This document shows, piece after piece, positions 3,195 to 34,838 of a stretch of 49,499 nt of DNA. A model generated the notes under the pieces. That model ran no database searches, was not told the origin of the DNA, and saw only the letters and a program-made list of their open reading frames with translations. Origin of the DNA: an uncultured Verrucomicrobia subdivision 3 bacterium. Lineage in GTDB: Bacteria; Verrucomicrobiota; Verrucomicrobiia; Limisphaerales; UBA11358. Each line of letters begins with the position of its first letter. Position 1 is the stretch's first letter. The position numbers and the translations under genes were made by a program. The stretch covers positions 1 through 49,499 of the forward strand of contig CAIJGS010000001.1 of the NCBI GenBank assembly GCA_903820285.1. Reading direction: 5' to 3'.

Positions 3195-3777
3195 CTGAAT
3201 ACTTCTAGCTGACACCGTCCGTTCCGCAATGAAAAAAGCAGGCCCGGCGCGGCGGGGGAGACAAAAACCGGGCGCGATACCAATATCACAATATCACGTA
3301 GGGGCCCAAATTCGATAAATCGGGGCGATAATGGCACAGCGGCTGGCCGATGGCATAATTGGAATGGCACAAAACCATGGGCCGACTCCTTTACGGAACC
3401 AATGCAGGTGGCAAATAAAGTTGCCATTGCCAGTGCTGACATGATCGTTCGCCATGAGGAAAGACCAGAGGACTGGACGCTGGCGCGATTGCCATGGCAT
3501 CCGTATGTGCAAAGCGTTCTGGAGTTCGCCCAGTCCTCGGTGCATTGTCTTCATGAGCTACCTGGTTCATTTCAAATCTCAAATTTGAAAATGAAATCGG
3601 CCTCCCCCCATACGCGTATTTCACGGTTAATCAGCTTTTTTTGCGGTTTGCCGGGTTTTTGCCTCAAACCGGGGGTGAAAACCGGGGTGGGGACCGCAAA
3701 TTCCGCCATTTAGGTTTGTAAAAGATCGGGTTTTCTGCAACTTTTCCCGGCCCCGGTTGTTCAACCTGAACCAACAA
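3195..3777. other. Gene-free stretch before the gspE operon
   Basis: About 580 bases with no credible gene; short open frames on both strands lack family features and codon signal. It must hold the promoters of the divergent nuclease and secretion operons. The only clear structure is an AT-rich hairpin at 3567-3595. A TGGCAA...TTGCC pair near 3409-3425 resembles a sigma-54 site but has the wrong spacing. Confidence 0.5.
3567..3595. repeat. Short AT-rich palindrome (AAATTT type)
   Basis: TTCATTTCAAAT, a four-base loop, then AATTTGAAAATGAA: imperfect arms of about 12 bases. A related, cleaner palindrome lies at 30071-30093, suggesting a small recurring element. Confidence 0.5.
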
Positions 3778-5538
3778 ATGGGATTTAACTCAGTCAAACA
3801 GCTCGTTGCGACGGTGGCGGAAGCGCCCCCGGCGCAATTCGACGATTGGCGCAAGACTTGGCGGACGGCCGCCGATGGCGGCTCCACGGAGTCGTTTCTT
3901 ACCTTTATCGCCCGCGAGCGCGGGATTTCCGAAGAGGTGTTCATGCAACGGCTGGCGGCTCAACTGGGCTGGCCGTTTCTGGATCTGCCCAAGCTGACGG
4001 TCCCGGGCGAGGTCCGCAAAAAGATTTCCACGAAGATCGCCTTCCAATATTCCGTTCTGCCGGTGGGGATTAACGACGGGGTTCTGCAATTGGTGGCCAG
4101 TGATCCCTTTGACTCGGCGATGATGAATGCGGTGCGGTTTGATGCGCGCATGCCGGTGAGTTTTGCGCTGGCGACGCGCGCGGAGATCGAGAAGGCGCTG
4201 AAGAAGTACTACGGTGTCGGCGCCGAAACGCTCGATGAAATGGGCGAGGACGAGCCGATGGACCTGGAAATCGCCAACGACAAGGAAATTACCGAGGGCG
4301 ACCAGGAGGCGAGCGTGATCAAGTTCGTGAACCAGATCATCTGGGAAGCGTTCAAGGATCGCGCCACGGACATTCATTTTGAGCCGCAGGAAGACGAGTT
4401 GCGCATCCGCAACCGGATTGACGGCATTTTGCACCAGATTCCGCTGCCGCCCACGCTGAAGCGGTTTCAGGCGGCGATCATCTCGCGTATCAAGGTGATG
4501 AGCGGGATGAACATCTCGGAAAAACGCCTGCCGCAGGACGGTCGTATTAACGTGCGCATCAAGGGCGAGGAAATTGACATCCGCGTTTCGACGGTGCCGA
4601 CGGTGTACGGCGAAAGCGTGTCGCTGCGCTTGCTGACGCGCGGCAAGATTTTCCTGAGCCTGGAAAAGCTGGGTTTCTCCCCGCACGAAGAGGCGGCGAT
4701 CCGCGACATCATCATCAAGCCGCACGGCATTTTCCTGGTGACGGGGCCGACGGGGTCGGGCAAGTCCACCTCGTTGTACGCGTTTTTGAGCGCGATCAAC
4801 TCGGTACACAAGCGCATTATCACGGTTGAGGAACCGGTGGAATATGAATTGAAGGGCATCAACCAGATCGCGGTGCGGCCGGAGATCGGGCTGACGTTCG
4901 CGATGGGGTTGCGCCACATTTTGCGGCAGGACCCGAACGTGGTGATGGTCGGGGAAATTCGCGATCAAGAGACGGCGGAAATCGCCATTCGCGCATCGCT
5001 GACGGGTCACTTGGTGTTCAGCACGCTGCACACGAATGACGCGCCGAGCGCGTTCACCCGTCTGATTGACATGGGGATTGAACCGTTCCTCGTGGCGTCC
5101 TCGGTGGAAGCGGTGCAGGCGCAACGGTTGATCCGGACGATTTGTTCGCATTGCAAGACGGAGCAGGTGGTGGACCGCAATTATCTGCGGCGCATCGGGT
5201 TTCCCGAGGCGGATATCGAGACGGCCAAGTTCTGGCATGGCGCGGGTTGCGAGCATTGCCGGCAGCAGGGCTATCAGGGCCGCAAAGGGATTTACGAATT
5301 GCTGCTGGTCACGGAAACGCTGCGGCCGCTGATCATGAATCGCGCGCCGGCCTCGACGATTGCGGCCCGCGCGATGGAAGCCGGCATGCGCACGCTGCGG
5401 ACGGACGGTTGGACGAAGGTGAAGAACGGCGTGACCACCATTGAAGAAGTCCTGCGCGTGACGCAGATCGAGGAGCACATGGAAGCCTTGAACGAAGGCG
5501 AGCGCACCCAGATTCTGGCGCGCATGCAAACCCCGTGA
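3778..5538 (+). CDS. gspE: GspE/PilB-type secretion ATPase
   Basis: 586 aa from ATG 3778 (a TTG at 3757 would add seven residues). This is the cytoplasmic hexameric ATPase that powers pseudopilus assembly in type II secretion and type IV pilus systems. In order: an N-terminal MshEN/GspE-N-like region (to ~150), the N2 domain (ATDIHFEP), Walker A GPTGSGKS (about 322-330), the Asp box/Walker B region (NVVMVGEIRD), the His box (TGHLVFSTLHTNDA), and a C-terminal tetracysteine zinc site (CSHC ... CEHC) as in GspE and PilB. Full family length. It leads an operon with the next three genes; the next start is 32 bases downstream. Gene content alone cannot decide between type II secretion and a pilus. 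Confidence 0.93.
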   Translation: MGFNSVKQLVATVAEAPPAQFDDWRKTWRTAADGGSTESFLTFIARERGISEEVFMQRLAAQLGWPFLDLPKLTVPGEVRKKISTKIAFQYSVLPVGINDGVLQLVASDPFDSAMMNAVRFDARMPVSFALATRAEIEKALKKYYGVGAETLDEMGEDEPMDLEIANDKEITEGDQEASVIKFVNQIIWEAFKDRATDIHFEPQEDELRIRNRIDGILHQIPLPPTLKRFQAAIISRIKVMSGMNISEKRLPQDGRINVRIKGEEIDIRVSTVPTVYGESVSLRLLTRGKIFLSLEKLGFSPHEEAAIRDIIIKPHGIFLVTGPTGSGKSTSLYAFLSAINSVHKRIITVEEPVEYELKGINQIAVRPEIGLTFAMGLRHILRQDPNVVMVGEIRDQETAEIAIRASLTGHLVFSTLHTNDAPSAFTRLIDMGIEPFLVASSVEAVQAQRLIRTICSHCKTEQVVDRNYLRRIGFPEADIETAKFWHGAGCEHCRQQGYQGRKGIYELLLVTETLRPLIMNRAPASTIAARAMEAGMRTLRTDGWTKVKNGVTTIEEVLRVTQIEEHMEALNEGERTQILARMQTP

Positions 5539-6971: not shown

Positions 6972-7531
6972 AAAAGTATTTCGAACAGCTCCGGCCGCTG
7001 GAACGCCGCCTGCTCGTAGGCGTGCTGGTGGTGTTGTTTCTGGTGTTGAACCTGGTGTTTGTCTGGCCGCACTTCGGGGACTGGGACATGTATTCGCGCC
7101 GGAGCCTCGCGGCGGAAAACAAGCTGAAGCTGTATCAGACAGCCATCAATATTTCGTCCAGCTACACCAAGCTGGTGAAGAACATGGAAAATCAGGGCGA
7201 ATCCGTGGCGCCGGAAGACCAGGCCAGCGATTTTCTGCGCCTGATCAACGCGCAGTCGGCGCAAAGCGGTGTGGGCATTGTGACCACCTCCCGCCAGATC
7301 ACGCATACGAACCAGTTTTTTGTCGAGCAGATCGAAAACATCACCGTGAGTTCCACGGATGACCAGCTGGTGGATTTCCTCTACAAGCTGGGCTCGGGCG
7401 GCTCCATGATTCGCGTGCGTGATCTGGAACTGCAGCTTGCCAATCCGCCGCAAAAGCTCAACGGCAACATCAAGCTCGTGGCGAGCTACCAGAAAGCCGC
7501 CCCCAAAACTTCAACCGCAAAGTCAAAATGA
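6968..7531 (+). CDS. PilO/GspM-like pseudopilus assembly protein
   Basis: 187 aa: a short basic N-terminus with LERR, one transmembrane helix (about 15-35, LLVGVLVVLFLVLNLVFVW), a helical stretch, then a periplasmic alpha/beta region (VDFLYKLGSGGSMIRVRDL) of the kind seen in PilO and GspM. Such proteins pair with PilN/GspL in the inner membrane to link the ATPase to the secretin. It overlaps the preceding gene by ATGA and the secretin gene by ATGA, which ties all three to one transcript. Confidence 0.75.
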   Translation: MKKYFEQLRPLERRLLVGVLVVLFLVLNLVFVWPHFGDWDMYSRRSLAAENKLKLYQTAINISSSYTKLVKNMENQGESVAPEDQASDFLRLINAQSAQSGVGIVTTSRQITHTNQFFVEQIENITVSSTDDQLVDFLYKLGSGGSMIRVRDLELQLANPPQKLNGNIKLVASYQKAAPKTSTAKSK

Positions 7532-9936
7532 AAACCAAATTTACCCTCCTGTTTTTGTGGGCGGCCATGCTGGGCCTCCAGGCGCAGCAAACGATGCCGG
7601 GCCTGCCGCCGCCGCCGGGGCCGATGTCGGCTGCCGATCGGCAGGCGTTGATGCAAAAAAAGATGCTGGCCCGTCAGCGCGGGGCAACCAATAATGCCGC
7701 AGCTGTGAGGCCCGCCGCCACGGTTGCCAGCGCCGCCGCAGCCACGCCCGCCATTCCTTCATTTCCCAACCTGCCGGGAGCCACGCCGTCCCAAATGGCG
7801 GGTAATACCACCATGCCCGCCAGCACCACGGGCACGGCACCGGCCGCGCCGGAGGAAATGATTCCGGCCAAGACCATTAATTTCCAAGGCGTGGATGTCA
7901 GCCAGGTGCTGGAGGTTTACGCGCAGCTGGTGAACCGCACGATTTTGCGCGCCAATCTGCCCGAGGCGAAGATTGTTTTGAAGACCCAGACGCCGCTGAC
8001 CAAGACGGAGGCCATCCAGGCCCTGCAGGCGGTGCTGGCTCTGAACGGCATTTCCGTGGTGAACATTGGCGACAAGTTTGTGAAGGTGCTGCAATCCGAC
8101 CAGGCGAACACCGCCGGCGCGGAACTGGATCATTCCAGCGCGGAAAACCTGCCCAACCTGGGTTCCTACGTGACCCACATCGTGCAGTTGAAATATACCA
8201 AGCCTTCGGAAGTGGCCACGATCATCCAGCCGTTCGGCAAGTTGCAGAATTCGGCGGTGCCCTTTGACAACAACGGCGTGCTGGTGCTGCGGGACTACGC
8301 GGAAAACGTGAAGCGCATGCTGGAAATCATCAGCCAGATTGACGTGAACATTCCCGCTGAATACACCTCGGAAGTGATTCCGATCCGGTATGCCCAGGCG
8401 GCGGACATTGCGAGCGCCCTGAACAGCCTCGGCGGCAGCGGCGGCACCACGGTGAGTTTTGGCACCTCCGGCATGAGCAGCTCGGTGAGCGGGATGTCCG
8501 GCGGCCGTTCCGGCGGTGGCTTTGGTGGCAGCAGCGGCGGTTTCGGGGGCAGCAGCTTTGGCGGCAGCAGCGGCGGCGGCGGCTTCAACGGCCTGAACAG
8601 CGGGGGCGGCTTCGGCAGCCAGAACCGTTCCAGCTTTGGCGGTTCATCGTCGGCGAATCCGAATGGCACGCCTTCCACGGGCACGAGCTTTGCGCAGCGC
8701 CTGAACAACATTGTGAATGCGGCGGCCAGCCCCGGCGGGGCCGGTGGCGCGGGTGGCAACAAGCAGGACGCCATCCAGGTGTTCGGCCAGGCCAAGATCA
8801 TTGCCGACCAACGTAGTAATGCGCTGCTGGTGTTCGCCACCAAATCGGACATGGTGAACATCAAGAGCGTCATCAACCAGCTCGACGTGCTGCTGGCCCA
8901 GGTGTTGATCGAGGCGGTCATTCTGGATGTGTCGTTGAACAAGGCGTTTAATTTCAGCATGTCGGTGGCGCAGAATCCGGTCGTAAATAAGAATAACACC
9001 TTGGCTGGCGCGGGCGGTTTTAACAATTCCAGCGGTTCTCCCTTCCTTAACTTTTTGAATAGCACCACGAATGGTTACAGCATCGGCACCAATTCTTCCT
9101 CGATATTTGGCAATGCGTTGCCGAGCGGTGGCGGCATGAACTACTTCGGCAACATCGGCCAGACTTGGGATGTCGCCCTCTCGGCGCTCCAGTCTGACTC
9201 CTCGGCCAATGTCATCCAGAAGCCGCGCATCCAGACTTCGCAGGCGAAGGCGGCCACATTCTTCGTCGGTCAGACGGTTCCCTACGTGACGGGCACCTAT
9301 TATGGCGGCGGTTATTCCGGCGGCAACAGCTCACAATATTCGCAGCTCTCCGTGGGTGTGGAACTCGACGTAACGCCCTTCATCAACCCGGACGGCCTGG
9401 TGGTGATGGACATCAACCAGGAAATTGACGATGTGAACGGCTACACCCAGATTGACGGCAACAAGGTGCCCACCACCACGAAGCGTACGCTTTCCTCGGA
9501 AATCGCCGTGCGCGACCAGGACACCATCATCCTCGGCGGGTTCGTGCGGGACGACAAGTCCAAGGCCAAATCCGGCGTGCCGCTGCTGTCGGACATTCCA
9601 CTGCTGGGCAATCTCTTCACCAGCCGCAGCGATACGAAGGATCGCGAAGAATTGCTGGTGCTCATGCGTCCGACCGTGCTGAAGACGCCGGAGGCGGCCT
9701 CGCACCAGACCATCAAGGAAGAGCAGCGTCTGCCGGGCATTTCATCCGCCCAGGCGGAACAGGCCGAGTATGAACGCACCCTGATTGACGCCCAGCGCAA
9801 ACTGGAAAAAGCGCGCGCCAAGAAGGGCCATACCGATGGCTATTACAATGTCACCATCCCGGCGGATGCCGTGGACACTAACAGTATACCGGTGACGAAC
9901 ACCGTGCCGGTGGCGGTGCCCGTCACGAATCCCTGA
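7528..9936 (+). CDS. gspD: Type II/IV secretin (outer-membrane channel)
   Basis: 802 aa. A signal peptide (residues 1-19, ending LQA) is followed by a Pro/Ala-rich linker. An N0-like domain begins at INFQGVDVSQVLEVYAQLVNRTI, then N1/N2-type domains containing IIQPFGKLQNSAV and RSNALLVFA. A Gly/Ser-rich low-complexity insert lies at about 311-377. The C-terminal secretin domain (about 551-724) has the hallmark VPYVTG, GVELDVTPFINPDG and VPLLSDIPLLGNLF segments. A polar tail of about 80 residues follows. Secretins form multimeric outer-membrane gates for exported proteins or pili. The gene overlaps the PilO/GspM-like gene by four bases and ends just before a strong terminator. The Gly/Ser insert is unusual in length and could be a flexible tether in the periplasm. 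Confidence 0.93.
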   Translation: MKTKFTLLFLWAAMLGLQAQQTMPGLPPPPGPMSAADRQALMQKKMLARQRGATNNAAAVRPAATVASAAAATPAIPSFPNLPGATPSQMAGNTTMPASTTGTAPAAPEEMIPAKTINFQGVDVSQVLEVYAQLVNRTILRANLPEAKIVLKTQTPLTKTEAIQALQAVLALNGISVVNIGDKFVKVLQSDQANTAGAELDHSSAENLPNLGSYVTHIVQLKYTKPSEVATIIQPFGKLQNSAVPFDNNGVLVLRDYAENVKRMLEIISQIDVNIPAEYTSEVIPIRYAQAADIASALNSLGGSGGTTVSFGTSGMSSSVSGMSGGRSGGGFGGSSGGFGGSSFGGSSGGGGFNGLNSGGGFGSQNRSSFGGSSSANPNGTPSTGTSFAQRLNNIVNAAASPGGAGGAGGNKQDAIQVFGQAKIIADQRSNALLVFATKSDMVNIKSVINQLDVLLAQVLIEAVILDVSLNKAFNFSMSVAQNPVVNKNNTLAGAGGFNNSSGSPFLNFLNSTTNGYSIGTNSSSIFGNALPSGGGMNYFGNIGQTWDVALSALQSDSSANVIQKPRIQTSQAKAATFFVGQTVPYVTGTYYGGGYSGGNSSQYSQLSVGVELDVTPFINPDGLVVMDINQEIDDVNGYTQIDGNKVPTTTKRTLSSEIAVRDQDTIILGGFVRDDKSKAKSGVPLLSDIPLLGNLFTSRSDTKDREELLVLMRPTVLKTPEAASHQTIKEEQRLPGISSAQAEQAEYERTLIDAQRKLEKARAKKGHTDGYYNVTIPADAVDTNSIPVTNTVPVAVPVTNP

Positions 9937-27308: not shown

Positions 27309-27504
27309 AAAAGGGATAGTGAGTGTTTGCCAATTGCGCGAGGAAATCAATCTTTTAGAGCCTGCCATATTATTGGGGGAGGAACAGCGGTTGGATCCGG
27401 CGTTGCCCGACCGGCCGGGTCGGTAAGGCTGGGGTGACCGGTTGCGGAACTCTTTTAGCCGGCCAGACCTTAGTTTGGTCAGGGAGTAGCTGCGCTCCCG
27501 TCAA

Positions 27505-27540
27505 TGCGTGAATTTCACGCATGATGCGTGAAAATTTCAC
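27505..27540. promoter_or_regulatory. Twin palindromic operator, probable activator binding sites
   Basis: Site 1, TGCGTGAATTTCACGCA (27505-27521), is a near-perfect 17 bp palindrome. Site 2, GTGAAAATTTCAC (27528-27540, preceded by TGC), repeats the same GTGAA/TTCAC half-sites. Centres are 21 bp apart, two helical turns, so bound dimers would lie on one DNA face. They sit roughly 90-120 bp upstream of the predicted sigma-54 transcription start, the usual place for enhancer-binding proteins. Confidence 0.65.
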
Positions 27541-27601
27541 CCAAATCGGGGTTGGGCGGATTTTGGGGTGTCAAAAACAAGGGCTTTTGCGGTTTTGCCA
27601 T

Positions 27602-27617
27602 TGGCATCAGTATTGCT
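27602..27617 (+). promoter_or_regulatory. Sigma-54 (RpoN) promoter of the pseudopilin gene
   Basis: TGGCAT, five bases, TTGCT: compared with the consensus TGGCAC-N5-TTGCA it has the GG and GC dinucleotides with exactly 10 bases between them and one mismatch in each box. The predicted start of transcription is near 27628, leaving an 85-base leader. Confidence 0.65.
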
Positions 27618-27680
27618 ATTACTGGCTCAGTAATCTGGATGACTCGCGATACCTTTTGAGTAAAGTCGTCGGCCTGCTCC

Positions 27681-27712
27681 AGAGGAAGCAACAACAAACA
27701 ACAACAACAATT
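27681..27712 (+). promoter_or_regulatory. CAA-rich unstructured leader of the pseudopilin mRNA
   Basis: AGAGGAAG (27681-27688), a good anti-16S-type sequence, is separated from ATG 27713 by 24 bases made almost only of CAA/ACA units. This is too far for a normal Shine-Dalgarno contact, so either the leader itself recruits ribosomes (G-free, unpaired) or AGAGGAAG acts in standby binding. Confidence 0.5.
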
Positions 27713-28492
27713 ATGAAACAAACGAACCAAAAGAAAGCGTTTACGCTGATCGAACTGCTGGTCGTAATCGCGATCATCGCGATTCTGGCCGCCATGCTCT
27801 TGCCCGCGCTCGCGGCCGCCAAGCGCAAAGCCCAACGTATTAACTGCGTCAACAACCTCAAAGAAGTGGGTCTGGCGTTCAAGATCTGGGAAGGTGACAA
27901 CAACGACCGTTTCCCCATGGCCGTCTCCGGTGCCCAGGGTGGTGCCTCTGAAAACGTGTACTCTGGCGGTGTCGCCGGTACCTACGCTGCCAATAAATCC
28001 GGTGTGTGCATCATCTTCGGTGTGATGTCCAACGAACTGAGCACGCCCAAGATCCTGTATTGCACCTCGGATTCCGGTGCGAATCGCCAGGCGGCCACGA
28101 ACTTCGTGCAGCTCATTGCGCCGGTCGCCAATGGTGCCACGCCTTATTACAACGCTCCGCTGGTGAACCAGCAGTCCGTGAGCTATGCGGTTGACGGTGA
28201 CGCGGCTGACGCCTATCCCCAGATGATCCTCACGGCGGATCGCAACATTGGTGTGGCCACCAGCCAGGGCGGCGTTCCCATTACCACGAACAACGTTGCC
28301 GCTCCCGCAACCATGCAATGGGTCGGCACTTTCTGGGCTTTCAGCCAGAATGATCTGCACCAGAAGGCCGGTAACATTGGTCTCGCGGACGGCAGCTGCG
28401 CGCAGGTCAGCTCCTCGGCGCTCCAGACGGCCTTGATCAACTCCACGAACTCGGCCTCGACCACCAAGCCGTACTTCAACTTCCCGAACTGA
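27713..28492 (+). CDS. H-X9-DG type pseudopilin (type II secretion/type IV pilus-like)
   Basis: 259 aa. The prepilin N-terminus is [20 protein letters not shown]: short basic leader KQTNQKK, processing before Phe, Glu at +5 and a ~20-residue hydrophobic helix. The usual -1 Gly is Ala here. Near the C-terminus [12 protein letters not shown] gives exactly H-X9-DG, the signature of DUF1559-like pseudopilins expanded in Planctomycetes and Verrucomicrobia. The globular part is otherwise unremarkable. It may be the major subunit for the machine encoded at 3778-9936 and 30725-34838. Start ATG 27713 gives the proper leader; longer in-frame readings have no pilin features. It is monocistronic with its own sigma-54 promoter and terminator, suggesting high, regulated expression. 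Confidence 0.9.
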
Positions 28493-28511: not shown

Positions 28512-28543
28512 TACGAGGCATCCGCAAGGATGCCTCGTTTTTT
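28512..28543 (+). terminator. Rho-independent terminator of the pseudopilin gene
   Basis: Perfect 11 bp stem ACGAGGCATCC / GGATGCCTCGT with a GCAA tetraloop and a run of T, 20 bases after the stop. Confidence 0.95.
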
Positions 28544-28556
28544 TATTAATCGGGTT

Positions 28557-28735
28557 GGTTTACCACATAGAACGCAGAGAACACAAAGAAATAAGGGGCA
28601 ACATCCAGAATAGGGAAAAATCCAACAACCAACATTGAACGCCCAACGTCCAACATCCAATGCCGGCAGAACAAAAGAGCGGATGCGCTGGCCATGTCTT
28701 TGTGATCTCTGCGTTCTATGCGGTTAAATTTATCC
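28557..28735. repeat. Interspersed repeat, family 3, copy 2 (inverted ends)
   Basis: The left end ACCACATAGAACGCAGAGAA and the right end CTCTGCGTTCTATGCGGTTAA are inverted versions of each other and match the arms at 21640-21711. The ~120 bp interior holds tandem CCAAC-type words (CCAACATTGAACGCCCAACG, then CCAACATCC). No coding capacity. Confidence 0.75.
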
Positions 28736-30572: not shown

Positions 30573-30724
30573 ACTGGCCCCAATGCAACCGAAAATGACC
30601 CGCAGGTCAAGCCGATTCGCAGGGCAGGGGTGGCCGGGAACCACCGCCTCCCCCCCGGCCCCCCCATTATCATCCTCCAATATTTGAAACTTTCGGCCGC
30701 CGCCGGTTTTTGATACAAGACGCT

Positions 30725-32014
30725 ATGCCGCAGTTTTCCTACAAGGCCCGCAAACGTTCCGGTGAGTTGCTCGAAGGTGCGCTGGATGCCGCCGACCGGG
30801 CGGCCGCGCTGACGCAGATCCAACGGTTGGGGTTGTTTCCCCTGTCCGTGGAGGCGGCGCGTGCCGGCGCTGCCGGGGCGGCCGCTCCGGGCGCGGCGGC
30901 GGCGGGCATCAAGCTTTCCTCCTTCCTGCCGCAGTCCATGCGCGAGTCCATGCAGCAGCAGCGCAAGCCGAAGTTGCAGGAACTCGCCAATTATACCACC
31001 CAGCTCGCCAACCTGCTGAACTCCGGCATGCCGCTGACCGTGGCGCTGGGGAGCATGGTGAACCTGGAATCCAAGGGCATTCCCTCGGAAGTCAGCAAGG
31101 AATTGAAGCAGGAGGTCACCGCCGGGCGCAGCATGTCCGACGCCATGGCGCGCCAGCCCCGCATTTTTTCCGATCTCTACATCAACATGGTGCGCGCCGG
31201 CGAGCAGAGCGGGTCGCTGGTGCAGGTGCTGCGCCGCATGGCCGCGCATTTCCAGCAGTTTGCCGCCGTCCAATCCAAGGTCACCGCCGCGTTGATTTAC
31301 CCGGCCCTCGTCTCCTGCCTTGGCGTGGGCATCGTGGCCTTCTTCATGTTTTTCATGCTGCCCCGGTTCACGGATATTTTCTCCGGGTTCAATATTGAGC
31401 TGCCGCTGCCCACCCGCATGCTGATGGGTGGCAGCGCCCTGCTGCTCAAATTCTGGTGGCTGCTGGCGATGCTCATCATTGCAGCGATCGTCATGTTCAA
31501 ACGCTTTTCCTCCAGCGAAAGTGGTGCCCGGAAGCTGGATGTGTGGCGCCTGAAAGCCCCGCTGTTCGGCAAGGTGATGCGCTTGAATGTCTTTGGCCAG
31601 TTCGCGCGCACACTTGGAACGCTGCTGCAAAACGGCGTGCCGCTGCTGACCGCGCTCAAGATCACCGAGCAGGTGATGACCAACCGGCTCATCAAGGAGG
31701 CCATCGCCAAAACCCGCGAGGCCGTCACGGATGGCAAAACCCTCGCGCAGCCGCTGGCGCAGAGCAAGGTGTTCCCGCAACTGATGGTTGACCTTGTGCG
31801 CATCGGCGAGGAAACCGGCGATGTGCCCGGCGCGCTCAACAATCTCGCGGACACCTATGAGGGCGAACTGGATATCGCCCTGCGCCTGCTCACCCAGCTC
31901 ATCGAACCCATTCTGATCATTGCCATGGCCGTGATCGTGGGCTTCCTGCTGCTGTGCGTGATGCTGCCCATGTTCAGCCTGATTTCGCACATCAGCTCCA
32001 CCACCGCCAAATGA
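30725..32014 (+). CDS. gspF: GspF/PilC-type inner-membrane platform protein
   Basis: 429 aa from ATG 30725. An N-terminal segment (FSYKARKRSGELLEGALDA) is followed by an Ala/Gly-rich linker (about 45-60) and two homologous T2SSF domains: FTRQLANLL-type start TTQLANLLNSGMPLTVAL, then the second copy FGQFARTLGTLLQNGVPLLTAL. Three membrane helices lie near 195-220, 245-265 and 395-420. This protein sits at the base of the pseudopilus and couples the ATPase to pilin extraction. It leads the second secretion operon, which continues with overlapping pseudopilin genes. Confidence 0.93.
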   Translation: MPQFSYKARKRSGELLEGALDAADRAAALTQIQRLGLFPLSVEAARAGAAGAAAPGAAAAGIKLSSFLPQSMRESMQQQRKPKLQELANYTTQLANLLNSGMPLTVALGSMVNLESKGIPSEVSKELKQEVTAGRSMSDAMARQPRIFSDLYINMVRAGEQSGSLVQVLRRMAAHFQQFAAVQSKVTAALIYPALVSCLGVGIVAFFMFFMLPRFTDIFSGFNIELPLPTRMLMGGSALLLKFWWLLAMLIIAAIVMFKRFSSSESGARKLDVWRLKAPLFGKVMRLNVFGQFARTLGTLLQNGVPLLTALKITEQVMTNRLIKEAIAKTREAVTDGKTLAQPLAQSKVFPQLMVDLVRIGEETGDVPGALNNLADTYEGELDIALRLLTQLIEPILIIAMAVIVGFLLLCVMLPMFSLISHISSTTAK

Positions 32015-32556
32015 CCGTGCCGCCGCGTTCCAGAACAGGTTCGCCGGGTTTCACCCTGATTGAAATCATGGTGGTGATTGCCATCATGGGCCTGGTGATT
32101 GCCATGGGCATGCCGTCCATCATCACCGCCTTCAAACGCGAAGGCATGCGCAAGGCCATCTACGATGTCGAGGAAGTCTGCCGGAACGCGCGGGCGCAGG
32201 CCATATTTGGGAACAAAACCACCTGGGTTTATTTCTATCCGGGATTGACTGACCGGCGCTATCAACTTGGGGGTGATCCCGTGGTGGGCGGCGCGGCGCT
32301 GGCCGATGTGGCTTCCACGGCCACCACCTCCGCCGGTGGCAGCGAGACCAGTGGCGTGCTGCCCGAAGATGTGCAGATAGAAATGCTGGACATCAACCTC
32401 CAGGACTTCGCCGAATCGCCATGGGGCCGCGTCCGGTTTTTCCCCAATGGCACTTGCGATGAAATGGTGATGGTACTCCGCTTTAAAGATCAGGAGCGCA
32501 AGGTTACATTGGAATATTCCACTGCCATGACCGATGTGACGGATGTGGACAAATAA
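32011..32556 (+). CDS. gspH: GspH-like minor pseudopilin
   Basis: 181 aa, start overlapping the gspF stop (ATGA). The prepilin site is SPG then FTLIEIMVVIAIMGLVIAM, with Glu at +5. The mature part has ARAQAIFGNKTTWVYFYP, comparable to GspH/FimT pseudopilins (arrays of added strands), and a Gly/Ser/Thr-rich loop. Minor pseudopilins cap or prime the pseudopilus. Assignment to H rather than G is by size, sequence and gene order. Confidence 0.8.
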   Translation: MTVPPRSRTGSPGFTLIEIMVVIAIMGLVIAMGMPSIITAFKREGMRKAIYDVEEVCRNARAQAIFGNKTTWVYFYPGLTDRRYQLGGDPVVGGAALADVASTATTSAGGSETSGVLPEDVQIEMLDINLQDFAESPWGRVRFFPNGTCDEMVMVLRFKDQERKVTLEYSTAMTDVTDVDK

Positions 32557-32982
32557 ATGAATGTGAATGCACAATCTGGTGCCCGCGCCGCGTTTTCGCT
32601 CATCGAAGTGATGATCGCCATCGCTATCTTCTTTGGCGCGCTGTTCGTCATTCTGGGGCTCGTCTCGGGGTCGCTCTCCGGCGCGCGGCATCTGGAGCGT
32701 CCGCTGTTGGATGCCAGTGTGGTGGCCTCCGAAATGTCCCTGACAAACAAGCTCACGGAAGGCGGCAGTTCCGGCGATCTCGGCGACCTGCTGGGCAGTG
32801 CCTACAATGGCTGCGAATGGACCGCCGATGTCGTGGAAGTGCAGAGTAACAAACTCTTCGGCGCGGAAATCGTGCTGCACGGGCAGGAACGGGGCAAGCC
32901 GGTGGAATCGAAAATGACGATCCTCCTGTTCCGCCCGGATTCTCCCGCCGGCAGCCTGGAAGGAGCGACGGTGCGCCGATGA
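32557..32982 (+). CDS. gspI: GspI-like minor pseudopilin
   Basis: 141 aa, ATG directly after the preceding TAA. Prepilin-type start AFSLIEVMIAIAIFFGALFV with Ala at -1 and Glu at +5, and a short C-terminal domain as in GspI/PilV. The following gene overlaps by four bases. Likely part of the H-I-J-K tip complex. Confidence 0.8.
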   Translation: MNVNAQSGARAAFSLIEVMIAIAIFFGALFVILGLVSGSLSGARHLERPLLDASVVASEMSLTNKLTEGGSSGDLGDLLGSAYNGCEWTADVVEVQSNKLFGAEIVLHGQERGKPVESKMTILLFRPDSPAGSLEGATVRR

Positions 32983-33752
32983 ATCTTTCCCGCCGCCATC
33001 CGCGCCAGCGCGGTTTCACGCTGGTGGAAATCCTCGTGGCCCTGGCCATCCTGGGGATGATCGTCTCCGCGATTTACGCCACGTGGATTCTCATCCTCCG
33101 CTCCTCGGCCATGGCGCAGTTTGTGGCCGCCAGGGCCCAGCGCGAGCGCATCGCCGTCCGCACCGTGGAAGATGCCCTGATCTGCTCGCAGTCGTTCCAG
33201 GCCTCGATGAAGTATTACAGTTTCATTGTGATCAACGGCGAGGAACCGATCCTTAGCTTCACCGCGCGCGTCCCCGAGGTTTTTCCCCGCAACGGCAAAT
33301 TTGGCGACATCAATCTGCGCCGCCTGAACTTCACCCTGGAAGAAGGCACGGGCGAGGAGCATGGCAAAAACCTGGTGCTGCGCCAGAATCCCATCCTCAT
33401 GGACATGGACGAGGATGAGAAAAAATTTCCACTGGTGCTGGCGCACGGTGTCAAAACTTTTGGCGTGGATTGCTGGGACACCAACAAACTGGACTGGGTG
33501 GAGCAATGGGACAATACCAACGCCATCCCGCCCGTCGTCCGCATCCGGCTGCAACTGGATGGCGATGCCAATGCCGCCGATGCGACCGCACTGACCGTGG
33601 TGCGCCTGGTGGCGATGCCTTGTGAAATGATGCCGGCCAACATTCAGCAACCCAATGGCGGCGGCCCGGGCGGACCCGGAGGACCAGGCGGGCCAGGCGG
33701 GCCGGGCGGGCCGGGTGGTCTGCCGCCGCTGAACCCAGGACGAGGACGTTAA
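32979..33752 (+). CDS. gspJ: GspJ-like minor pseudopilin with Gly-Gly-Pro tail
   Basis: 257 aa, ATGA overlap with gspI. RGFTLVEILVALAILGMIVS is a standard prepilin start; GspJ-like features include QRERIAVRTVEDAL and a large globular domain. The last ~35 residues are a collagen-like GGP repeat (from about 227), encoded by 9-bp DNA repeats at 33658-33720, then a Pro/Arg-rich end. The tail is not part of normal GspJ and may be surface-exposed or a flexible linker. Confidence 0.82.
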   Translation: MNLSRRHPRQRGFTLVEILVALAILGMIVSAIYATWILILRSSAMAQFVAARAQRERIAVRTVEDALICSQSFQASMKYYSFIVINGEEPILSFTARVPEVFPRNGKFGDINLRRLNFTLEEGTGEEHGKNLVLRQNPILMDMDEDEKKFPLVLAHGVKTFGVDCWDTNKLDWVEQWDNTNAIPPVVRIRLQLDGDANAADATALTVVRLVAMPCEMMPANIQQPNGGGPGGPGGPGGPGGPGGPGGLPPLNPGRGR

Positions 33753-34838
33753 ATGAACATTTCCTCGCGCAAACCAACTGCCGCCTCTGCCGGTATCGCA
33801 CTCATCGTGGTGATGATCTCGGTGGCTGTGCTCTCCGTTTTGGCCGTGGGGCTGGCCCTGATGATGAAGACGGAGATCCGGCTGGCGCAGAATGCGGATT
33901 CCGAGGAACAGATTTACTGGCTCGGCCGTTCCGGCGTGGAGCTCGCCCGCTGGGTGCTGGCGCAGGAAGCTTCCATTCCCAATGAACCGTACGATTCGCT
34001 CAACCAGATTTGGGCCGGCGGCCCCGGCGGCATGGATGAAACCAACAGTCCGCTGAACGGCATTTCCCTGCAAGGCTATCAGGTGGGCGAGGGGACCGTC
34101 TCGCTCAAGATCATTGATTTGGAACGCAAGGTGAACATCAATTCCGCCGATCCCGTGTTGCTGCGCCAGGTCTTCACCGTCATGGGCGTGGATGCCAACG
34201 ACGTCTCCACTCTGGTGGATTCCATCGGCGACTGGATTGATCCCGATGATCTACCGCGCACCGCTGGCGCGGAAAGCGATTATTACCAAAGCCTATCGCC
34301 TAATGCCTACCTGGCCAAAAATGCGCCGCTGGATGATCTCTCGGAAATGCTCCAGATCAAAGGCGTGACGCCGGAAATGTATTGGGGGCCGGCCGCCGGC
34401 CAGCATACCGGCACAGGTGCCCATCAGAAGCTGGGTTTTGGCAATGCGCCCGGGCAGGAGCCGCAGTACGCTTTCGGCTTGGTCGATGTCTTCACGCCCT
34501 TTTCCGCCGGCCGCATCAACATTAACACCGCCGATGCCAACGTGCTTCAGATGATTCCCGGCGTGGATGAAAATACGGCCCAGGATATCATCAAGGCCCG
34601 GTCCGGCCCCGATGGCGTGGATGGCACGGCGGATGATACGCCGTTCCGCAGCCCCGGCGAACTGGCCAAGGTGGACCAGCAGCTCGCGCAGCAGGCCGGG
34701 CGGTTTTGCGATGTGCGCAGCCACACCTTTGAAGTTCACGTGACCGCCCATTACGGCAATGCCGAGCGCGAATTTATCGCCATCATCGTCCGCAATTCCA
34801 ACAAGGATGTGCGTGTAGTTGGGTTCCGCTGGAATTAG
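33753..34838 (+). CDS. gspK: GspK-like pseudopilin
   Basis: 361 aa, ATG directly after the gspJ stop. The N-terminus SAGIALIVVMISVAVLSVLA lacks Glu at +5, as is normal for GspK. The large globular part carries VNINSADPVLLRQVF and a second helix-hairpin-helix-like stretch RININTADANVLQMIPGVDE, both typical of GspK/SAM-like domains, plus acidic DWIDPDD that may bind calcium in the family. It would be the tip subunit of the pseudopilus. Last gene of the operon. Confidence 0.88.
   Translation: MNISSRKPTAASAGIALIVVMISVAVLSVLAVGLALMMKTEIRLAQNADSEEQIYWLGRSGVELARWVLAQEASIPNEPYDSLNQIWAGGPGGMDETNSPLNGISLQGYQVGEGTVSLKIIDLERKVNINSADPVLLRQVFTVMGVDANDVSTLVDSIGDWIDPDDLPRTAGAESDYYQSLSPNAYLAKNAPLDDLSEMLQIKGVTPEMYWGPAAGQHTGTGAHQKLGFGNAPGQEPQYAFGLVDVFTPFSAGRININTADANVLQMIPGVDENTAQDIIKARSGPDGVDGTADDTPFRSPGELAKVDQQLAQQAGRFCDVRSHTFEVHVTAHYGNAEREFIAIIVRNSNKDVRVVGFRWN

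Follow-up and report, generated by a model that had tools for sequence, protein, structure and literature searches.

What switches on the pilin-like gene that starts at position 27713 of the window, by which we mean the whole stretch of 49,499 nucleotides analysed here, from an uncultured Verrucomicrobia subdivision 3 bacterium of the order Limisphaerales? The original prediction proposed sigma-54 control with an upstream activator site, and this is strongly supported by conservation in relatives, by the presence of rpoN and by the helical phasing of the elements. Comparison of the sequences makes it very probable that a sigma-54 promoter with a two-palindrome activator site drives a pilin-like gene which is conserved across the Limisphaerales. 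The features concerned are listed in Table 1.

Table 1. Predicted elements of the switch, and the pilin-like and type II secretion genes of the window
Feature	Position	Strand	Description
Palindrome 1 of upstream activator site	27504-27522	none	ATGCGTGAATTTCACGCAT = ATGCGTGAA-T-TTCACGCAT; perfect; centre 27513
Palindrome 2 of upstream activator site	27525-27543	none	TGCGTGAAAATTTCACCCA = TGCGTGAAA-A-TTTCACCCA; one broken pair; centre 27534
-24/-12 sigma-54 promoter box	27602-27617	+	TGGCATCAGTATTGCT; GG-N10-GC; box in 40/47 readable homologous loci
Predicted sigma-54 transcription start	27628	+	inferred from box position
Degenerate sigma-70-like element	27639-27666	+	ATGACT-N16-TAAAGT, where many relatives carry TTGACA-N16-TAnAnT
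H-X9-DG pilin-like protein	27713-28492	+	259 aa; possible major pseudopilin of type II secretion system
Intrinsic terminator	28513-28545	+	11-pair stem at 28513-28538, T run
GspE-like ATPase	3757-5538	+	
GspD-like secretin	7528-9936	+	two genes without Pfam match between GspE-like and GspD-like
GspF-, GspH-, GspI-, GspJ- and GspK-like genes	30710-34838	+	only K above its NCBIfam cut-off

The predicted -24/-12 box matches the sigma-54 consensus TGGCACG-N4-TTGCW at 10 of 12 positions and has, as claimed at the outset, the 10 bp spacing between GG and GC. The centres of the two palindromes lie at about -115 and -94 from the predicted start and are indeed 21 bp apart, as first described. As a refinement, the two are not the same palindrome, as the GCGTG...CACGC span is 15 bp in palindrome 1 and 17 bp in palindrome 2 (half-sites 2 bp wider apart), a difference that is kept in the same-genus relatives that have the pair. 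The box is the single match in the window to TGGCA-N6-TTGCW, for which 0.47 are expected and which was present in 40 of 100 shuffles, so that the box by itself is not significant and takes its significance from its place and its conservation. Similarly, GCGTGA-N3-TCACGC has one site without mismatch, at 27506, and its near-matches (7 in total against 3.7 expected, the other six with two mismatches) are unremarkable in number. As no single element is improbable in the window, the case for a switch rests on the order of the elements and on the relatives. A chance arrangement read into one sequence, which would account for elements that are each unremarkable in 49 kb, is refuted by the order-wide scan for the pair, by the conservation at pilin loci and by the box at 26 of 26 pilin-linked pairs (all described below), and we regard it as exceedingly improbable.

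Directly 5' of the pilin ATG, at 27689-27712, the leader is CAA-rich and free of G, similarly in many relatives, and it has no obvious Shine-Dalgarno sequence at the usual distance. A longer pilin frame from 27521, given in a mechanical list of open reading frames, was rejected in favour of the ATG at 27713 because it would begin inside the palindromes and the homologues give it no support.

The translated pilin has an H-X9-DG stretch near its end and an N-terminal methylation (prepilin) motif, PF07963, at 35.1 bits (cut-off 21.2), and the stem and T run behind the gene agree with the initial description of a pseudopilin gene with its own terminator. Between the pilin gene and rpoZ, at 28560-28730, a long imperfect inverted repeat (ACCACATAGAACGCAGAGA ... 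TCTCTGCGTTCTATGCGGT) was noticed by reading, which surrounds a short CCAACATCCAA-type repeat and looks mobile-element- or repeat-like.

The gene sits 2.2 kb before the GspF-like gene, and no clear GspG-like gene was seen among the Gsp genes of the window. For the H-like gene the scores of the H and G models are almost equal, at 32.1 and 31.6 bits, each below its cut-off, and the best NCBIfam match of the window pilin is the GspG model TIGR01710, at 33.2 bits, which does not reach the cut-off of 88.85. As the window has genes like E, D, F, H, I, J and K of type II secretion with no clear G among them, its pilin may be the major pseudopilin, and service to this secretion system, the rest of which is encoded on either side of the pilin gene, is the role we lean towards, at about an even chance. 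The same genome holds at least 44 scored matches to pilin homologues, and two further phased pair-and-box sites, one before another pilin-like gene (C165, distance 88) and one in front of the gene for a large exported protein that has a metalloprotease domain of the M11 type (C188, distance 108). One switch for a secretion fibre and a secreted enzyme would make a coherent picture, if an unproven one.

Homologues of the pilin were matched in all 59 genomes searched, usually many per genome, and the best was taken from 49 of them, the selection resting on similarity of the proteins with no regard to the promoter. Of these 49 loci 47 were readable, L032 and L137 being left out as they had no readable start. 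A box was accepted if it lay 60-160 bp upstream of the ATG and matched at 8 or more of 12 positions, GG and GC being required, and a palindrome pair was accepted at 6 mismatches or fewer. On this basis the box was found in 40 of the 47 readable loci and the pair too in 35 of those 40, bearing out the proposed conservation before relatives' pilin genes, and within the genus both were found in 25 of 27 readable loci, where the mean pairwise identity was 0.78 in the palindromes compared to 0.41 and 0.28 in the flanks (22 sequences). The two exceptions in the genus, L020 and L025, hold another pilin paralogue, which lacks a sigma-54 box and follows what appears to be the gene of a LuxR-type response regulator. 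An accepted box was missing in 7 of the 47 readable loci, namely these two, L131, L133, L138, L139 and L140, of which L138 (G052) has a box that is too near the ATG. No recognisable palindrome pair was seen in five box-bearing loci (L127, L128, L132, L134 and L136); of these, L132 (f12) was dropped as an example of a box without palindromes, as the first pilin of the tandem there has a box and a degenerate pair.

Ten pilin regions were set against the window. In seven of them (G017, G001, G033, G034, G012, G208 and G018) the pilin gene and glyS are divergent neighbours, and in G020, G011 and G045, where the pilin gene lies away from glyS, box and palindromes are still there; pilin gene and switch would thus appear to travel together. 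Six loci (L006, L008, L015, L018, L029 and L034) have a conserved TGTGAAYAACTT about 20 bp before palindrome 1, absent from the window, which we take to resemble a DnaA box (TTATTCACA) on the other strand and which may be part of the divergent glyS promoter. In loci of the genus a stretch similar to TTCATTGGCTTTT is also partly conserved between palindromes and box, some 25-30 bp upstream of the -24 box; it is missing from the window and might serve to bend the DNA.

The palindrome pair was also sought independently of the pilin. A relaxed pattern (within 3 mismatches) was found in 66 of 245 genomes of the order, with 102 listed sites, compared to 2 of 245 for the same pattern backwards; among the 179 genomes with no pair within 3 mismatches, some have a more degenerate pair. 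A strict pattern, run over 84,980 species, gave 36 stretches, 34 of which have record titles naming Verrucomicrobia, Verrucomicrobiota, Verrucomicrobiia, Verrucomicrobiales or Limisphaerales (the other two, L256 and L258, are titled 'bacterium'), and going by this strict pattern the exact form of the pair looks confined to Verrucomicrobiota. Inspection of 52 pair sites in 50 loci from the order-wide list (30 loci as supplied and 20 picked for genus and multi-site genomes) showed the box at all 26 sites with a pilin behind, against a shuffle expectation of 3%, and at 5 of the 26 without; the 21 sites of the 52 with neither box nor pilin show that such palindromes also occur in another setting. 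These 21 sites would suit an alternative in which the palindromes serve a repressor or other regulator, the nearby box being a separate sigma-54 promoter or a chance match, but that is very improbable given the box at every pilin-linked pair, the helically phased distances and the family f33, where box and palindromes are both absent. Tandem GCGTGAATTTCACGC palindromes without box or pilin, repeat-like in appearance, were noted in L092, L093 and L094 (G222) and others. The box pattern, counted in seven genomes, exceeded its backward control in G059, G067 and G055 and not in the other four, and of the 33 box-pattern sites in G055 and G067, the 19 that were inspected all had no pilin behind them.

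The distances from palindrome 1 to the box fall at 76-78, 86-90, 96-101, 108-110, 120 or 127 bp. They rise by about 10 bp at a time, which direct contact between activator and polymerase would predict, since the two would then need to lie on facing sides of the helix. For the period test one value was taken per family and class, giving 36 values of which ten were entered by hand, and left out were a spacing of 50 at L099, which has no pilin, pairs above 6 mismatches, G052 (L138), for which the spacing determined by hand is 78, and f38 and f30, which were ambiguous. The best period was 10.25 bp, matched by none of 3000 uniform draws, a result that shared ancestry inflates. The jumps in spacing inside families, a test inflated less by kinship, were 10, 10, 19, 11, 11, 10 and 34 (p about 0.005 compared to random jumps, with the period of 9.85 that was found on a smaller set). 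The spacing of 127, the jump of 34 and the dropped spacing of 50 fit the phasing poorly.

Behind the box, many relatives carry what looks like a second promoter. A TTGACA/TATAAT-type pair at 9 or more of 12 positions was found in 26 of the 40 box-bearing loci (3.8% in shuffles), 34-45 bp behind the box start, with 20 of the 26 at 36-38 and 24 of the 26 having a 16-bp spacer. Because this sigma-70-like promoter stands at a nearly fixed distance in so many loci, control of the pilin is probably dual, and dual sigma-54/sigma-70-type control is, on the comparisons made here, likely to be old in the order. It could even be that the sigma-70-type promoter (TTGACA-N16-TAnAnT, about 37 bp behind the box start) is the main one and sigma-54 only boosts it, as its frequency and nearly fixed place might suggest, together with the f33 pilins, where the sole promoter recognised is sigma-70-like. 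This is unlikely, however, as the element in the window is degenerate (8 of 12, a score that 17% of shuffles reach, with the -35 only 4 of 6), the spacer in G249, a near relative of the window, is one base shorter, and the conservation of box and palindromes shows selection on the sigma-54 system. A GACAG...CTGTC inverted repeat flanks the sigma-70-like -10 in many members of the genus and was not seen in most other families.

The rpoN gene (PF04552, sigma-54 DNA-binding domain) was found in 57 of the 59 genomes, including the window's own (G000:C392, E 4.2e-59), and the PF00158 matches of that genome comprise eight strong NtrC-type activators and four weak matches to AAA-type proteins; the two components that the original prediction had named as worth looking for are thus both there, and upstream activator site and GAFTGA-bearing activators occur in the same genome. 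The activators were compared in a tree of 56 proteins (two further loci gave no readable protein). Three groups, A (C181), B (C157) and C (C133), are present in the window's own genome and also in each of the four other genomes of the genus that carry the motif and entered the tree (G001, G012, G033 and G034); group E is found in those four and was not found in the window's own assembly, which is 91% complete. The D, F, C379 and C151 types were rejected as candidates, because G012 and G001 have perfect palindrome pairs and each of these types is absent from at least one of the two genomes. No twin palindromes marking autoregulation of an activator were found, the scan of activator loci at one mismatch giving few hits.

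The activator is probably the group C regulator G000:C133:4149-5564(-), a receiver-AAA-HTH protein encoded next to a histidine kinase with hydrophobic N-terminal segments, judged by reading of its sequence to be located in the membrane. In place of the expectation that the activator would be new there is now a specific candidate. Its setting next to the gene of a membrane histidine kinase makes this NtrC-family regulator PilSR-like in layout, while its presumed binding site is unlike that of PilR. Strong matches to group C (E <=1e-150) were found in 216 of 245 genomes of the order, and its recognition helix reads TRHSLRYRM or close to it in most members. In f33 the helix was changed in all five genomes read (TETVLKKKV, TEASLRKKA or TEALLKKKA), and all six pilin promoters there are without box and palindromes, having TTGACA-N17-TAnAAT instead. 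As the best f33 pilin match covers only about 88 N-terminal residues of the window pilin, its orthology is not sure, and as f33 is one lineage its genomes count as one event. Among the motifs compared in f33 activators only the recognition helix stands out; a loss of the GAFTGA loop was considered and dropped, the GSFTGA found there being a form that occurs in other activators too.

Three further genomes point in the same direction, G107 with an altered helix and no box, G099 with a partly altered helix and no recognisable palindromes, and G003 (of the window's genus, 94% complete), in which neither a close match to group C nor a palindrome pair was found and whose best pilin has no box. Against group C are G055, G061 and G048, where the helix is intact though the best pilin lacks the full set of box and palindromes, and G125, G154 and G179 (73-82% complete), in which a palindrome pair is present and a close match to group C is missing. 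The tie between the altered f33 helix and the lost switch is correlative, with exceptions. The same switch could instead be worked by one of the other core NtrC-type regulators of the order, either group B (G000:C157, which resembles AtoC/ZraR and comes with a PAS kinase) or group A (G000:C181, which resembles NtrC), since both occur in the sorted genomes almost as widely as C, no PilR-specific NCBIfam call was obtained for group C among the best 25 matches, and no autoregulatory palindrome was recognised before the activator genes scanned. We hold this to be rather unlikely, as in G067, the one f33 genome in which group B was read, the B helix is ordinary and like that of other group B members while the C helix is changed, and group A is not among the three activators of G067, nor among the two, out of three, that were readable in G058, which has the palindromes and is 83% complete.

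Control of pilA by PilS/PilR and sigma-54 is known from Pseudomonas, Myxococcus and Geobacter. The arrangement described here shares with it the pilin gene, the -24/-12 box and the pairing of an NtrC-family regulator with a membrane histidine kinase encoded next to it. It is unlike it in belonging to another phylum, in the H-X9-DG type of the pilin-like protein and in the two TGCGTGA-type palindromes 21 bp apart. PilR binds TGTC-type repeats, whereas the conserved site here is the TGCGTGA palindrome pair and not a TGTC-type site; the HTH of the candidate activator presumably resembles that of PilR. The phylum of the Planctomycetia is near the Verrucomicrobiota.

Predicted sigma-54 promoters before pseudopilin genes (COG2165) have been reported in Myxococcia, Polyangia and Planctomycetia (PMC12316311), and the present case is like these in joining sigma-54 with type II secretion pseudopilins. 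That report is a statistical enrichment by COG; in the portions drawn on here, neither an enhancer site nor an activator is given for any pseudopilin, and motility in Opitutia is all that is named for Verrucomicrobiota (PMC12316311). Commensal Neisseria transcribe pilE from a sigma-54 promoter via the Nps/Npa two-component pair and an upstream activator site, while the pathogenic species use RpoD (PMC6528607). The predicted Limisphaerales switch is like that of the commensals in its two-component pair, its upstream activator site and a pilin gene placed under sigma-54, and the sigma-70-type promoter of f33 parallels the RpoD of the pathogens; Neisseria pilE needs IHF between activator site and promoter (PMC6528607), unlike the Limisphaerales switch, in which no IHF site is shown. 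A prior description of this switch was not found in the open-licence PubMed Central literature. Known, then, is the sigma-54 control of pilins by PilR or Npa, and new are the group, the enhancer site, the phasing, the pilin type and, likely, the natural loss in f33.

From the observed elements, their conservation, the phasing of about 10 bp, rpoN and the candidate activators, we infer binding, transcription and signal as follows. Two dimers of an NtrC-family activator would sit on the palindromes, on the same DNA face and separated by two turns; the bound activator would oligomerise and contact the RNA polymerase-sigma-54 waiting at the box, and would open the promoter at the expense of ATP. 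The pilin would then be made when the sensor kinase signals. More tentatively, and somewhat short of an even chance, this could be an order-wide sigma-54 regulon of the Limisphaerales devoted to secretion, in which a PilSR-like pair acts through a phased twin-palindrome enhancer on the major pseudopilin of the type II secretion system and on secreted enzymes such as the metalloprotease, and which was dismantled at least in f33, where enhancer, box and activator helix were lost and a sigma-70-type promoter took over.

To our knowledge, few promoters have been worked out in the large and mostly uncultured Verrucomicrobiota. Here the sequence alone gives a complete, testable switch, with its site, sigma factor, candidate activator and kinase, its target and a likely loss in f33. 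The motif is usable for finding genes that are switched on together in these bacteria, and the switch would show how the pilin-like fibre of a secretion system is controlled in bacteria with dozens of such genes per genome.
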